64,000 nt of DNA from NCBI RefSeq assembly GCF_014295415.1, contig NZ_CP052909.1, forward strand, positions 1,426,001-1,490,000, read 5' to 3'. This DNA comes from Constantimarinum furrinae (GTDB lineage: Bacteria; Bacteroidota; Bacteroidia; Flavobacteriales; Flavobacteriaceae). The notes beneath the pieces were generated by a model. That model searched no databases. It was not told the origin of the DNA and saw only the letters and a list, made by a program, of their open reading frames with translations. Position 1 is the first letter of the stretch. Each line of letters starts with the position of its first letter. A program made the translations under genes and the position numbers. Of the stretch, positions 17,955 through 61,696 are shown in pieces.

Positions 17955-17976
17955 TTTATTATGTATGCATAGTAAA
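17955..17976. promoter_or_regulatory. Palindromic operator candidate upstream of fadL
   Basis: A 22-base near-palindrome: left half TTTATTATGTA, right half TGCATAGTAAA. It differs at two positions from the core of the perfect palindrome upstream of etfB at 60587-60610. It lies about 83 bases before the fadL ATG. Probably the site of a fatty-acid-responsive repressor; the identity of the protein is inference. Confidence 0.6.
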
Positions 17977-18058: not shown

Positions 18059-19309
18059 ATGAAGAAAGTAGTACTATTGGTTGTGATTACTCTAATTACA
18101 GCCGTAACGTATGCCGGAGGCTATCGGGTGAGTCTGCAGGGAAATAAATCTCTGGCAATGGGCCATACCGGGGTTGCCGTGGTTAACAGTACCGAAAGTG
18201 TCTTTTTTAACCCAGCCGGACTCGTATACCTTGAAAATAAATTTAGTGTGACCGGTGGAGCATTCGGAGTATTTTCGAATGTTACTTACCAAAACGAAAG
18301 CACAGGTGAATCTGCGGTGACAGATAGCCCGGTTGGAACCCCATTATATCTTTACGCCGCGTATCAGGCTACCGATTGGTTGGCGTTTGGGCTTGGAGTA
18401 TACACCCCATATGGAAGTACCGTAGAATACGAAGACGATTGGGCAGGTTCTCACCTGGTAAACAACATCGACCTTCAGGCTATTTTTATACAACCCACGG
18501 TATCGATAAAATTAAGCGAGCACTTTAGTGTTGGTGGTGGTCCTATATATGTTACCGGATCGGTTAATTTTAACCGAAACCTGAACAGAACGCTTTCAGA
18601 TCTTGACGGAAACAGAAGTGAAGTTACTCTCGATGCAACCGGAGTAAGCGAATGGGGTTGGACCGTTGGAGCGATGTTCTCTCCAACCGAGAATTTTAGA
18701 ATTGGCGCAAATTATCGTTCACAGATTCGTTTGAATGCTGAAGACGGCGATGCCGACTTCGAAAATGTTCCCAATTCACCATTGGTTCCTTTTGCAGATA
18801 CTACTTTCGATGCACAACTCCCGCTTCCAGCGGAGATGACCGTTGGACTATCTTATCAATTCTGTGACAAGTGGTTATTTGCTTTCGATTATAACAGAGC
18901 TTTTTGGGATATTTACGAGTCATTAGACATCGATTTTGCCGATGAAAATATTCCAGATTCATTTAATGCACGAAACTATAAAAACGCGTCTACCTATCGA
19001 TTCGGACTGCAATATGAGGCGACCAGTATGTTCACTTTACGTGCAGGGTATTATTTCGACGAATCTCCGGTTCAGGAAGGATTCTTTGCACCAGAAACAC
19101 CACGTAACGACAGTAATGGTTATACTGCCGGACTTACAGTAAACCTTAGTGAGCGTTTTCAGATCGATGCTTCATTCCTATATCTGCACTTTAAAGAAGT
19201 TGAAGCATCTTACGATGCGTACTTCGAAAATGGAGTGGCAGTACCTTTTGGCGGAAGATATAAATCCAATGCTTTTGTACCGGGATTAGGTGTTACTTAT
19301 AAAATGTAA
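18059..19309 (+). CDS. OmpP1/FadL family outer membrane transporter
   Basis: 416 residues. The signal peptide ends near residue 19 (TYAGG). The N-terminus GGYRVSLQGNKSLAMGHTGVA and SVFFNPAGLVYL is the typical FadL plug segment with the NPA motif; the rest is a 14-strand barrel. FadL proteins take up long-chain fatty acids and other hydrophobic compounds across the outer membrane. A GDSL lipoprotein follows 20 bases later, which could release fatty acids from esters; the shared palindrome with etfBA fits a fatty-acid use module. Confidence 0.93.
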   Translation: MKKVVLLVVITLITAVTYAGGYRVSLQGNKSLAMGHTGVAVVNSTESVFFNPAGLVYLENKFSVTGGAFGVFSNVTYQNESTGESAVTDSPVGTPLYLYAAYQATDWLAFGLGVYTPYGSTVEYEDDWAGSHLVNNIDLQAIFIQPTVSIKLSEHFSVGGGPIYVTGSVNFNRNLNRTLSDLDGNRSEVTLDATGVSEWGWTVGAMFSPTENFRIGANYRSQIRLNAEDGDADFENVPNSPLVPFADTTFDAQLPLPAEMTVGLSYQFCDKWLFAFDYNRAFWDIYESLDIDFADENIPDSFNARNYKNASTYRFGLQYEATSMFTLRAGYYFDESPVQEGFFAPETPRNDSNGYTAGLTVNLSERFQIDASFLYLHFKEVEASYDAYFENGVAVPFGGRYKSNAFVPGLGVTYKM

Positions 19310-19329: not shown

Positions 19330-20868
19330 ATGAAAAATACTATTAAAATATTTATTGGCTTACTGGCAATTGGCTTTGTGAGCTGTGAGCCTGAGTTTGA
19401 AAACTCAGTAACAGATAGCGGATTCTATTCCAGTGGAGATGCAGATGTTTCTAATTATGTAGCTGTAGGGAACTCCTTAACGGCAGGATATGCAGATGGA
19501 GCTCTTTATATCGACGGACAGGAAAACTCATTTCCAAATATAATGGCACAACAATTTTCATTTGTTGGCGGTGGAGAATTTACCCAACCATTAATGTCTG
19601 ATAATCTTGGGGGATTACTATTGAATGGGACTCAGATCGCGAATAATCGTTTTGTATTGGCTGCAGATGCTACCGGTACTCCGTTAGGACCGGTTATTCT
19701 CGACGGCACCCCAACTACCGAAGTAACGACAAGTGCAACGGGACCATTCAACAACATGGGTGTTCCCGGAGCTAAGAGTTATCATTTAGTAGCACCGGGC
19801 TACGGAAATGTTTCAGGTGTTGCAACCGGACAGGCCAATCCTTACTATGCGCGTTTTGCGACTAGTGGAAATGCAACTGTCATTGCAGATGCCACTTCTC
19901 TAAATCCAACATTCTTTAGTTTGTGGATAGGAAATAATGATATCCTTGGTTATGCGACTACCGGAGGATCTGGTGTAGATCAAACCGGAAATTTAGATCC
20001 TTCAACGTATGCCTCTAACGATATTACCGATCCTAATGTTTTTGCTGCCGCTTACAGTGCACAGGTGGATGCGTTAACTGCCGGTGGGGCGCAGGGTGTT
20101 TTAATCAACATTCCCGATGTTACCTCAATACCTTATTTTACTACAGTTCCACAGCGCTCCATTCCTTTGGATGCTGCTACTGCTGCTGCTTTAAATGCAC
20201 AGTTTAGTCAGTATAATACGGTATTATTACCCACTTTGGTGCAGTTTGGAGTTATTACCCAGCAAGAAGCAGATCTAAGAATGATTAACTTCTCTGCAGG
20301 ACAAAATTTCCCTATCACCACAGATGACGATCTTACCGATGTGAGTCAGGTGCTACAAGGACCTCCGGCGAACTTACCTGCAGCCCTTGCTAATTTACTC
20401 GGGCAGCTTCGTCAGGTAAACAATGACGATCTTGTTATATTAACGGCATCTTCTGTTTTAGGTTCGGTGCCCGATCCTGGCAATCCTTCGGGAGTGATTG
20501 GAGTAAGTATTCCAATTGGGGAAGAATTCGTTCTTTCGGCGGTTGAGCAGGAAAGAGTTTCTGTTGCTGCTAATTCGTATAACGCCACGATCAAGGCACT
20601 TGCCGACGCTAACGGTTTAGGGTTTGTTGATGCCCGTGCTGCCTTGGCACAGGTTGCAAATGGAGGCGTTTCTTATGATGCCGGCTTATTGACTTCGGCT
20701 TTCGTGACGGGAGGAGCATTTTCGCTGGATGGCGTACACCCAACACCGAGAGGATACGCATATACGGCGAACCTGATCATCGATAAGATAAATAGTTTGT
20801 ATAATGCCAATATTCCTAAAGTGAACATTGGAAACTATCGAACTGTAACCATATCGAATAATCTTTAA
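19330..20868 (+). CDS. SGNH/GDSL hydrolase lipoprotein
   Basis: 512 residues. Lipobox IGFVSC at about residue 19. Block I is VAVGNSLTAGYADG with the nucleophile Ser, block III is LWIGNNDILGY with the conserved Asn, and block V is LDGVHPTPRGYAY with the catalytic Asp and His. Such enzymes cleave lipid or other esters. Anchored by lipid in the outer membrane, it is well placed to supply fatty acids to the FadL-type porin encoded just upstream. The specific substrate is unknown. A strong terminator follows. Confidence 0.9.
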   Translation: MKNTIKIFIGLLAIGFVSCEPEFENSVTDSGFYSSGDADVSNYVAVGNSLTAGYADGALYIDGQENSFPNIMAQQFSFVGGGEFTQPLMSDNLGGLLLNGTQIANNRFVLAADATGTPLGPVILDGTPTTEVTTSATGPFNNMGVPGAKSYHLVAPGYGNVSGVATGQANPYYARFATSGNATVIADATSLNPTFFSLWIGNNDILGYATTGGSGVDQTGNLDPSTYASNDITDPNVFAAAYSAQVDALTAGGAQGVLINIPDVTSIPYFTTVPQRSIPLDAATAAALNAQFSQYNTVLLPTLVQFGVITQQEADLRMINFSAGQNFPITTDDDLTDVSQVLQGPPANLPAALANLLGQLRQVNNDDLVILTASSVLGSVPDPGNPSGVIGVSIPIGEEFVLSAVEQERVSVAANSYNATIKALADANGLGFVDARAALAQVANGGVSYDAGLLTSAFVTGGAFSLDGVHPTPRGYAYTANLIIDKINSLYNANIPKVNIGNYRTVTISNNL

Positions 20869-58741: not shown

Positions 58742-59710
58742 TTATGCGTTTTGCGCCTTAAACTCCTTTAATTTTTCAGTGAGCTGAGGTACAACTTCGA
58801 AGGCATCGCCAACAATTCCGTAGTCTGCCGCTTTAAAAAACGGTGCCTCGGGATCGTTGTTTATTACCACTTTTACCTTAGATGAATTAATTCCTGCCAG
58901 GTGCTGGATCGCACCACTAATTCCTATAGCGATATATAAATTGGACGCTACCGGCTTACCTGTCTGTCCCACGTGCTCGCTATGAGGTCTCCATCCCATA
59001 TCACTAACCGGTTTTGAGCAAGCTGTCGCTGCTCCCAATGTTGCTGCCAGTTCTTCAAGCATTCCCCAGTTTTCAGGACCCTTTAAACCTCGGCCGCCCG
59101 ATACAACGATCTCTGCATCGGCGATGGTCACTTTATCGGTGGCTTTATCGACCGAAAGCACATTAACCGAGAAGTCATCATCGCTAAGTGATGGTGAAAA
59201 ACTTTCGGTATTGACATTAGTATCGTTTTCTTTTACACCGAAGGCATTTTTTGCCAATCCAATTACTTTAACATCTGTTGTAATTTCGGTATTAGAAAAA
59301 GCCTTGTTGGTGAACACGCTGTGTTTTACTTTAAATGGTGCGGTTCCGGTGGGAAGTTCAGTAACGTTAGGCACATATCCTGCTTCCAGATTAACGGCTA
59401 CCAAAGGAGCCATAAATTTGCAGTTCGCACTTGACGTAAGCACTACTACTTTAGCTTCTTCTTTTTTGGCGGCCTGCGCGATCATGTCGGCGTATGCCTC
59501 CGCATTGAATTCCTTTAACTTGTCGTTGGAAACCTCTAAAACCTTGGAAGCCCCATAAGCACCAAGTTGAGCGGAATCTCCACCGTTTACCGACACAGCG
59601 GTCACCGAGGTTCCCATCATATCTGCGATACCTTTGGCGTAGGATACGGCTTCAAACGCGATCTTTTTGAATTTTCCTTCTTCAGATTCTGTATATACTA
59701 AAATTGACAT
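58742..59710 (-). CDS. etfA: Electron transfer flavoprotein alpha subunit
   Basis: 322 residues. FAD-binding C-terminal block: VSGGRGLKGPENWGMLEELA, MGWRPHSEHVGQTGKPVASN, YIAIGISGAIQHLAGINSSK and INNDPEAPFFKAADYGIVGD. The ETF carries electrons from acyl-CoA dehydrogenases to the quinone pool. It starts three bases after etfB, so the pair forms one operon, likely controlled by the palindrome upstream of etfB. Confidence 0.97.
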   Translation of the reverse strand: MSILVYTESEEGKFKKIAFEAVSYAKGIADMMGTSVTAVSVNGGDSAQLGAYGASKVLEVSNDKLKEFNAEAYADMIAQAAKKEEAKVVVLTSSANCKFMAPLVAVNLEAGYVPNVTELPTGTAPFKVKHSVFTNKAFSNTEITTDVKVIGLAKNAFGVKENDTNVNTESFSPSLSDDDFSVNVLSVDKATDKVTIADAEIVVSGGRGLKGPENWGMLEELAATLGAATACSKPVSDMGWRPHSEHVGQTGKPVASNLYIAIGISGAIQHLAGINSSKVKVVINNDPEAPFFKAADYGIVGDAFEVVPQLTEKLKEFKAQNA

Positions 59711-59713
59711 ATC

Positions 59714-60454
59714 TTAAATAACTTTTGCTTCGTTGTGTAATAAATTTACCAGTTCGTCCACACTGTCTACCAGCTTCACAGCTCCTTTTGGAGCAGGTTT
59801 TTCGAAGGTCACAGATTGGGTTTCGGCAGATGCTTCAACAGCTTCCTTTACGTGTAACGGTTTAGAACGCGCCTGCATGATCCCGCGCATATTCGGAATG
59901 CGAAGGTCGCTTTCCTCTACCAGACCTTTTTGTCCTCCTACAACTAAAGGAAGTGTGGTTTTAAGGGTTTCCTTTCCTCCATCGATCTCTCTGATGGCGG
60001 TAACATTTTCTCCTTCGATCTCCAGATTAATACAAGTGTTTACAAAATTTGCACCGGTGAGTTTAGAGATCATTCCAGGGACCATTCCGCCGTTATAATC
60101 GATAGATTCGCGCCCGCCTATCACGAGGTCGTATCCTCCGTCTTTTACAACATTTGCGAGTTGTTTAGCCACAGAATAACCATCTGTTGCCGCGGTATTG
60201 ACACGAATTGCTTCATCGGCGCCAATTGCTAACGCTTTTCTTAAGGTGGGTTCTGTTTCAGGTCCGCCAACGTTCGCCACATGTACGGTTGCGCCTTGCT
60301 TTTCTTTAAACCACATAGCACGGGTAAGACCAAATTCGTCATTCGGGTTAATAACAAACTGTACCCCGTTGGTGTCGAATTTCGTGTCACCATCGGTAAA
60401 ATTGATCTTTGAAGTAGTGTCTGGTACATGACTTATACACACTAATATTTTCAT
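59714..60454 (-). CDS. etfB: Electron transfer flavoprotein beta subunit
   Basis: 246 residues. MKILVCISHVPDTTSKINFT, VINPNDEFGLTRAMWFKEK, ALAIGADEAIRVNTAATDGY and DLVIGGRESIDYNGGMVPGM are ETF-beta signatures. First gene of the etfBA operon. The leader is about 100 bases if the TATCTTCG motif at 60570 to 60563 on the minus strand is the -7 box, and the palindrome at 60587-60610 would then cover the -33 region. Confidence 0.97.
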   Translation of the reverse strand: MKILVCISHVPDTTSKINFTDGDTKFDTNGVQFVINPNDEFGLTRAMWFKEKQGATVHVANVGGPETEPTLRKALAIGADEAIRVNTAATDGYSVAKQLANVVKDGGYDLVIGGRESIDYNGGMVPGMISKLTGANFVNTCINLEIEGENVTAIREIDGGKETLKTTLPLVVGGQKGLVEESDLRIPNMRGIMQARSKPLHVKEAVEASAETQSVTFEKPAPKGAVKLVDSVDELVNLLHNEAKVI

Positions 60455-60586
60455 TGTAGAATTGTATTTGTTTATGTAACTGTTTTCGATGATTTCTAAA
60501 GGCGTTTACCCTCAGTTCTTGCAGAAATTCCTTGGATGATTCCGATTCGGATTTCGCGGCTACGAAGATACATATATATTTCTGAA

Positions 60587-60610
60587 TTTTACTATGCATG
60601 CATAGTAAAA
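60587..60610. promoter_or_regulatory. Perfect 24-bp palindrome upstream of etfB
   Basis: TTTTACTATGCA followed directly by its exact reverse complement. It lies between divergent etfBA and pdhB. It is placed at the -33 region of a possible etfB promoter. A 22-bp near copy is upstream of fadL at 17955. Size and symmetry suit a dimeric TetR-type repressor. Confidence 0.72.
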
Positions 60611-60712: not shown

Positions 60713-61696
60713 ATGAAGACTTTACAATTCAGAGAAGCCATCCAGGAAGCCATGAGTGAAGAAATGCGTCGCGACGAGAGCATTTATTTAATGGGAGAAG
60801 AAGTTGCCGAATACAACGGTGCATATAAAGCCAGTAAAGGAATGTTGGACGAGTTTGGCGCCAAGCGGGTGATCGATACCCCTATTTCCGAATTGGGATT
60901 TTCGGGTGTCGCCATTGGTTCTGCAATGAACGGGAATCGTCCCATTGTAGAGTTTATGACGTTTAACTTTTCTTTGGTGGGGATCGATCAGATCATAAAT
61001 AATGCTGCAAAAATTAGACAAATGAGTGGCGGACAGTTCAACTGTCCAATCGTTTTTCGCGGGCCCACTGCATCTGCCGGACAATTGGCAGCAACGCATT
61101 CGCAAGCCTTTGAAAGCTGGTACGCCAATACTCCGGGGTTAAAAGTTATCGTGCCCAGTAATCCCGCCGATGCTAAGGGATTATTGAAAAGTGCCATTCG
61201 TGATGACGATCCGGTAATTTTTATGGAAAGTGAACAGATGTATGGTGATAAGGGCGAGGTTCCGGAAGGCGAATATCTAATTCCTATTGGTGTAGCCGAA
61301 ATTAAACGAAAAGGAAAGGATGTGACTATTGTTTCCTTCGGAAAGATCATAAAAGAGGCTTATAAAGCGGCTGAAACACTGGCTGAAGAAGGTATAGAAT
61401 GTGAGATCATCGATCTGCGTACCGTGCGACCAATGGATCATAATGCCATCCTTGAGTCGGTAAAGAAAACCAACCGATTGGTGATTCTTGAAGAAGCATG
61501 GCCTTTTGGAAATGTTGCTACCGAGATAACCTACCAGGTGCAAAGTCAGGCATTTGATTATCTTGATGCACCCATTGTAAAGATCAATACGGCCGACACA
61601 CCGGCACCGTATTCCCCTTCCTTGCTTAAAGAATGGCTACCTAACAGTGAGGATGTGATAAAAGCCGTTAAGAAGGTCATGTACAGGGAGGAATGA
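60713..61696 (+). CDS. pdhB: Pyruvate dehydrogenase E1 component, beta subunit
   Basis: 327 residues from the ATG at 60713. FREAIQEAMSEEMRRDESIY, LMGEEVAEYNGAYKASKGML, RVIDTPISELGFSGVAIGSA, FMTFNFSLVGIDQIINNAAK, HSQAFESWYANTPGLKVIVP and LRTVRPMDHNAILESVKKTN are E1-beta signatures of the pyruvate type. With E1-alpha it decarboxylates pyruvate to feed acetyl-CoA formation. The alpha subunit gene is not in the window. Confidence 0.95.
   Translation: MKTLQFREAIQEAMSEEMRRDESIYLMGEEVAEYNGAYKASKGMLDEFGAKRVIDTPISELGFSGVAIGSAMNGNRPIVEFMTFNFSLVGIDQIINNAAKIRQMSGGQFNCPIVFRGPTASAGQLAATHSQAFESWYANTPGLKVIVPSNPADAKGLLKSAIRDDDPVIFMESEQMYGDKGEVPEGEYLIPIGVAEIKRKGKDVTIVSFGKIIKEAYKAAETLAEEGIECEIIDLRTVRPMDHNAILESVKKTNRLVILEEAWPFGNVATEITYQVQSQAFDYLDAPIVKINTADTPAPYSPSLLKEWLPNSEDVIKAVKKVMYREE

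Follow-up and report, generated by a model that had tools for sequence, protein, structure and literature searches.

A recurrent palindrome ahead of fatty-acid catabolic genes in flavobacteria is the probable operator of a MarR-family regulator

The palindrome TTTTACTATGCATGCATAGTAAAA, at positions 60587-60610 of the window (the whole 64,000-nucleotide stretch of Constantimarinum furrinae DNA analyzed here), is very probably the operator of a MarR-family regulator, whose gene heads a marR-fadB-fadA-fadE operon elsewhere in the same genome; lipid-catabolic genes would thereby come under coordinated control. Comparison of genomes indicates that it is a real regulator-binding site, which recurs across flavobacteria ahead of genes for burning fatty acids. 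This provides candidates for the regulator and the operator that govern fatty-acid catabolism in flavobacteria, which are abundant degraders in the sea and in fresh water and whose transcription control is poorly known.

The palindrome is 24 bp long and perfect (12+12), and its core TACTATGCATGCATAGTA (60590-60607, no strand assigned) lies upstream of etfBA. A perfect palindrome ahead of etfB had been claimed in a sequence-only reading of the window, and this was borne out. The same reading placed a second copy, of 22 bp and with two changes, 83 bases before fadL. This copy, TTTATTATGTATGCATAGTAAA (17955-17976, likewise without strand), is as described, except that its distance to the fadL ATG is 82 bases. 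Whole-genome scans for the operator were performed as pattern searches. In the one-contig genome of 2.99 Mb, the 22-mer was found three times at up to three mismatches: at the two window sites and at C1:2142169-2142190, the latter being the only perfect copy besides 60587-60610. The reversed control pattern of the 22-mer gave no match across the 2.99-Mb genome. A weight matrix trained solely on 80 marR operators from other genomes gave 37.4 bits for the window genome's marR site, 34.7 bits for that of etfB, 30.4 bits for that of a 2,4-dienoyl-CoA-reductase-like gene, and 28.8 bits for that of fadL. The third-ranked match inside the window had only -3.8 bits, and 3 Mb of random sequence from a first-order Markov model reached 11.8 bits at most. 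The site at C1:633765 was discarded as weak, its 11.1 bits being at the chance level.

The third copy, outside the window, precedes a MarR-family gene (C1:2141681-2142127 of the window genome, G000; 149 aa) by approximately 42 bp. The protein matches Pfam MarR with 43.3 bits against a cutoff of 24.6; it has a winged-helix domain, and the fold of its model matches MarR structures. No curated NCBIfam MarR subfamily (BilQ, SlyA, OhrR, HpaR, and MarR sensu stricto) was reached, the best score being 37.3 against a cutoff of 125. In the operon, marR comes first, followed by fadB (3-hydroxyacyl-CoA dehydrogenase/enoyl-CoA hydratase, 802 aa), fadA (thiolase, 396 aa), and fadE, whose product is an acyl-CoA dehydrogenase above the NCBIfam cutoff for a FadE model. 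Just upstream of marR is fadD, encoding an AMP-binding acyl-CoA ligase; by inspection, no separate site precedes fadD in the window genome. In most Aquimarina loci (L179-L181, L184-L190, L192, L193, and L197), a second operator is present in the region that precedes fadD, approximately 2.1 kb upstream of marR.

The sequence-only reading had proposed one fatty-acid regulon, to be checked by a genome scan for sites before fad genes. The scan led to the perfect site that heads marR-fadB-fadA-fadE and adjoins fadD, and the etfB site is found at up to two mismatches in 28 of 30 relatives' loci. The idea of a single-motif regulon is strongly supported by these sites: they stand ahead of genes for acyl-CoA dehydrogenase, hydratase/dehydrogenase, thiolase, and ETF, as in a beta-oxidation regulon, and one palindromic operator is at or near the regulator's own promoter, as in the MarR family. 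The reader proposed at that time, a TetR-type repressor, is not supported: the regulator gene with the adjacent conserved operator belongs to the MarR family, and Pfam matched no TetR family on this protein.

The MarR gene was found in 45 of 60 relatives. In all 30 of the relatives' loci that were read, TAYTATGCRYGCATARTA is present at up to two mismatches within 300 bp upstream of marR. Among 80 named loci of the Flavobacteriaceae type, from Cochleicola, Aequorivita, Ulvibacter, Salegentibacter, Aquimarina, Psychroflexus, and others, the site is within 300 bp of marR in 79, the remaining one having three mismatches, and the marR-fadB-fadA-fadE order is kept in 78. In other families, the core TATGCNNGCATA (up to one mismatch) is present in 18 of 20 marR loci, against a shuffle mean of 0.08. 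Three of these 20 loci are from the same order and the rest from other orders of the same class, with MarR identity of 37-48%. In a phylum sample of 297 genomes, the motif (up to one mismatch) is present in 41 of the 55 genomes with MarR (called at E below 1e-20) versus 5 of the 242 without it; the Fisher value for this co-occurrence is 1e-32, with the genomes related and the counts not independent. Genomes having MarR and no motif are mostly from families whose operator is a G variant. Within the family of the window genome, 101 sites were found in this sample versus one for the control pattern.

Natural losses of the regulator point in the same direction. G022, G041, and G054 have kept fadB and lost marR, and no site is found before fadB in any of them; G022 has none before etfB either. 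G015, with a partial fadB match and a fragmented assembly, was set aside as uninformative for this comparison. In two genomes of another order, G269 and G156 (L249 and L250), marR is apart from fadBAE with no site within 200 bp, and four motif sites are present elsewhere in each genome.

In the predicted structure of the MarR protein (mean pLDDT 89), the recognition helix comprises residues 60-72, and residue 61, the second in the helix, co-varies with operator position 3. Proteins with Thr at this residue (as in EATSLSR) go with T or C beside the TATG core in 231 of 232 half-sites, and those with Arg (as in ETRSLTR) go with G there in 19 of 24 half-sites. The pairing of Arg with G is what direct reading predicts. 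Since the sequences are related, the switch between Thr and Arg may reflect one or a few events. This natural covariation offers a ready specificity code for a MarR protein.

The second window site precedes a gene for a FadL/OMPP1/TodX-family outer-membrane protein (18059-19309, plus strand; Pfam Toluene_X, 1.7e-60) and one for a GDSL lipase/esterase (19330-20868, plus strand; Pfam Lipase_GDSL) with a lipobox-like N-terminus, MKNTIKIFIGLLAIGFVSCEPE. That fadL and the lipase belong to the regulon, as the sequence-only reading held, is supported in part: the site in the window is real, and across relatives the branch is only partly conserved, with a site at 10 of 30 lipase loci, either ahead of fadL or directly ahead of the lipase. 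TonB-receptor-like genes (L215, L222, and L218) have the motif about 75-81 bp upstream, and in G017 and G036 the site is followed by a TonB-receptor-like gene and then by a GDSL lipase. In G046 (L013 and L283), two perfect degenerate operator sites lie before genes for secreted or lipase-like hydrolases; this genome is without this MarR and without FadB, although it is near-complete (99%, two contigs).

Further sites were found at other genes. A strong operator-like site (L260:4052-4075, equal to C1:2055051-2055074 of G000) lies approximately 42 bp before the 2,4-dienoyl-CoA-reductase-like SDR gene, whose product scores 301.8 with its best-matching model, slightly under the curated cutoff of 318. 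This gene was rejected as a conserved target and is lineage-specific at best, because none of 17 relatives has the site. In six relatives (L212, L219, L221, L225, L228, and L230), the motif recurs at the gene for a FabK-like/nitronate-monooxygenase-type flavin oxidoreductase, where the -7 box falls at about +22 to +27 relative to the operator; a thioesterase gene is also among the recurrent targets in relatives. The motif is located approximately 30 bp before the start of an M3-family oligopeptidase gene in two genera (L214 and L220). In three genomes, it is upstream of FabH-like beta-ketoacyl synthase genes (L226, L227, L217, and L231), hinting at a link to lipid synthesis.

The flavobacterial sigma-A -7 box, TAnnTTTG, spans -12 to -5, as given in PMC9723704. 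Counted from where the 18-bp operator begins, this box starts at +26/+27 in 27 of 30 marR sites; in 27 of 28 etfB sites it starts at +35 to +38, and at lipase-linked sites it is most often at +53 to +55. From the predicted transcription starts, the operator centers are derived to be near -29 (marR), about -40 (etfB), and about -57 (lipase-linked). In the window, etfB (59714-60454, minus strand; Pfam ETF) has its predicted -7 box, TATCTTCG, at 60563-60570 on the minus strand, and its spacing is kept in relatives. The marR operator lies over the stretch where the -33 element is expected from its spacing to the -7 box. This fits repression, and autorepression of marR-fadBAE is likely from this position. 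The position at etfB is compatible with repression by overlap of the -33 region, and it would also allow activation.

The motif, its positions and conservation, the co-variation with the helix, and the gene content are observed; binding, the sign of control at each promoter, and the ligand are what we infer from them. A MarR dimer would bind TTTAYTATGCRYGCATARTAAA. At its own promoter, with the operator lying over the core promoter, it would repress both itself and fadBAE. The same operator would act on etfBA, whose product takes the electrons of acyl-CoA dehydrogenase onward, and upstream of fadL-lipase; since these genes share it, uptake, lipolysis, beta-oxidation, and electron disposal would be under joint control. 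Uptake of a fatty acid and its activation to acyl-CoA would release MarR and turn on its own operon and the linked lipid genes. By analogy with known lipid regulators, the releasing ligand is probably a fatty acid or acyl-CoA. According to PMC9723704, beta-oxidation genes of Flavobacterium psychrophilum are strongly upregulated with fish mucus or plasma, which is in keeping with lipid derepression; the proposed control is a likely explanation for the lipid response of this fish-pathogenic relative. Several observations count against the MarR model: G046 has its sites in spite of the missing MarR and FadB, G033 has MarR and no etfB site, fadL-lipase sites are seen at only 10 of 30 lipase loci, and at the fadL promoter of the window genome no -7 box stands out close to the operator.

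TetR repressors govern beta-oxidation in other bacteria. An archaeal TetR example is also on record (PMC6449355), and these precedents favor a TetR-type, acyl-CoA-responsive repressor as the reader of the palindrome, with marR merely another of its targets. This seems very unlikely, as marR adjoins the operator in nearly every genome, the site is absent before fadB in the three lineages that lost marR, and the outer base of the operator co-varies with the recognition helix of MarR. AT-rich palindromes are common in such genomes, and the recurrence might be ascribed to chance, or to a mobile or structural palindrome that regulates nothing. Against this, the matrix scores are far above those of random sequence, the control patterns are near zero, and the spacing to the promoter is fixed; the probability of any of these origins is negligible.

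With the MarR protein taken as the reader, its targets and the sign of its action have to be considered. The 60587 site lies between divergent genes, 132 bp from etfB, with etfA beyond it (58742-59710, minus strand; Pfam ETF_alpha), and 102 bp from the ATG of a pdhB-like gene (60713-61696, plus strand; transketolase pyrimidine-binding and C-terminal domains by Pfam), which the sequence-only reading had omitted from its description of the site. This gene is the divergent neighbor of etfB in all 30 relatives examined, and one site could control both promoters, so that the site might govern the divergent pyruvate dehydrogenase gene, alone or jointly with etfBA. Such control of pdhB is quite unlikely in view of the spacing: the distance from operator to -7 box is 35-38 bp toward etfB versus approximately 51 to more than 700 bp toward pdhB in relatives, and in L075 and L089 the site remains at etfB with pdhB more than 700 bp away. 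With the window genome excluded, the motif is ahead of etfB in 27 of 29 relatives, and 300 shuffled palindromes gave no match in the same 29 regions. Because the spacing is constant on the etfB side only, etfBA is the conserved target, and pdhB is probably not one. A dual mode like that of Escherichia coli FadR, with activation instead of repression at etfB (-40) and at fadL/lipase (about -57), would account for three distinct conserved spacings (26-27, 35-38, and 53-55), for upstream placements that look like activator positions, and for the FabH-like synthesis genes among the targets in relatives. It is nevertheless doubtful, since operators near -40 repress too and activation of catabolic genes by the ligand-free form makes little physiological sense. 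An extension of this idea, put forward tentatively and with low confidence, is that a class-wide MarR is the Bacteroidia counterpart of FadR, the operator position setting repression (fadBAE) or activation (upstream sites), and that some genera also include FabH, FabK-like, secreted lipase, and TonB-receptor genes. If true, it would tie lipid scavenging to lipid synthesis.

The proposed MarR regulon for beta-oxidation, as deduced from genome comparison, appears to be widespread among Flavobacteriaceae and to extend to other orders of the class, and would work like the fad regulons of FadR and TetR type. The literature search, with most subscription papers outside its full-text reach, returned no report of a Bacteroidetes MarR fatty-acid regulon or of the motif string. 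As in the case of E. coli FadR (GntR family), one regulator would link fatty-acid uptake, activation, and beta-oxidation, possibly together with synthesis genes; however, the protein family, the operator, and the promoter type are unrelated, the beta-oxidation operon itself includes marR, and etfBA belongs to the conserved targets. The TetR-type regulators of beta-oxidation, FadR of Bacillus and Thermus and PsrA, likewise have palindromic operators before fad and etf genes, and release by acyl-CoA is expected in both cases, whereas here a MarR is linked to the motif and no TetR gene is linked to it in the loci read. CouR and BadR, and FabT for synthesis, are MarR-family regulators responding to acyl thioesters. 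They share the fold and repress pathways that run through CoA or ACP thioesters; their pathways are aromatic degradation or fatty-acid synthesis, whereas the present MarR heads a beta-oxidation operon, and the sequence match to CouR (structure 6c28) is weak (E 1.4e-6 from an alignment profile). OhrR, MepR, and SlyA also share the fold: the best sequence match among MarR structures is OhrR, and superposition of the model on DNA-bound MepR (4lln) gives a TM of 0.84, whereas identity is approximately 20-28% and the operators and signals are different.
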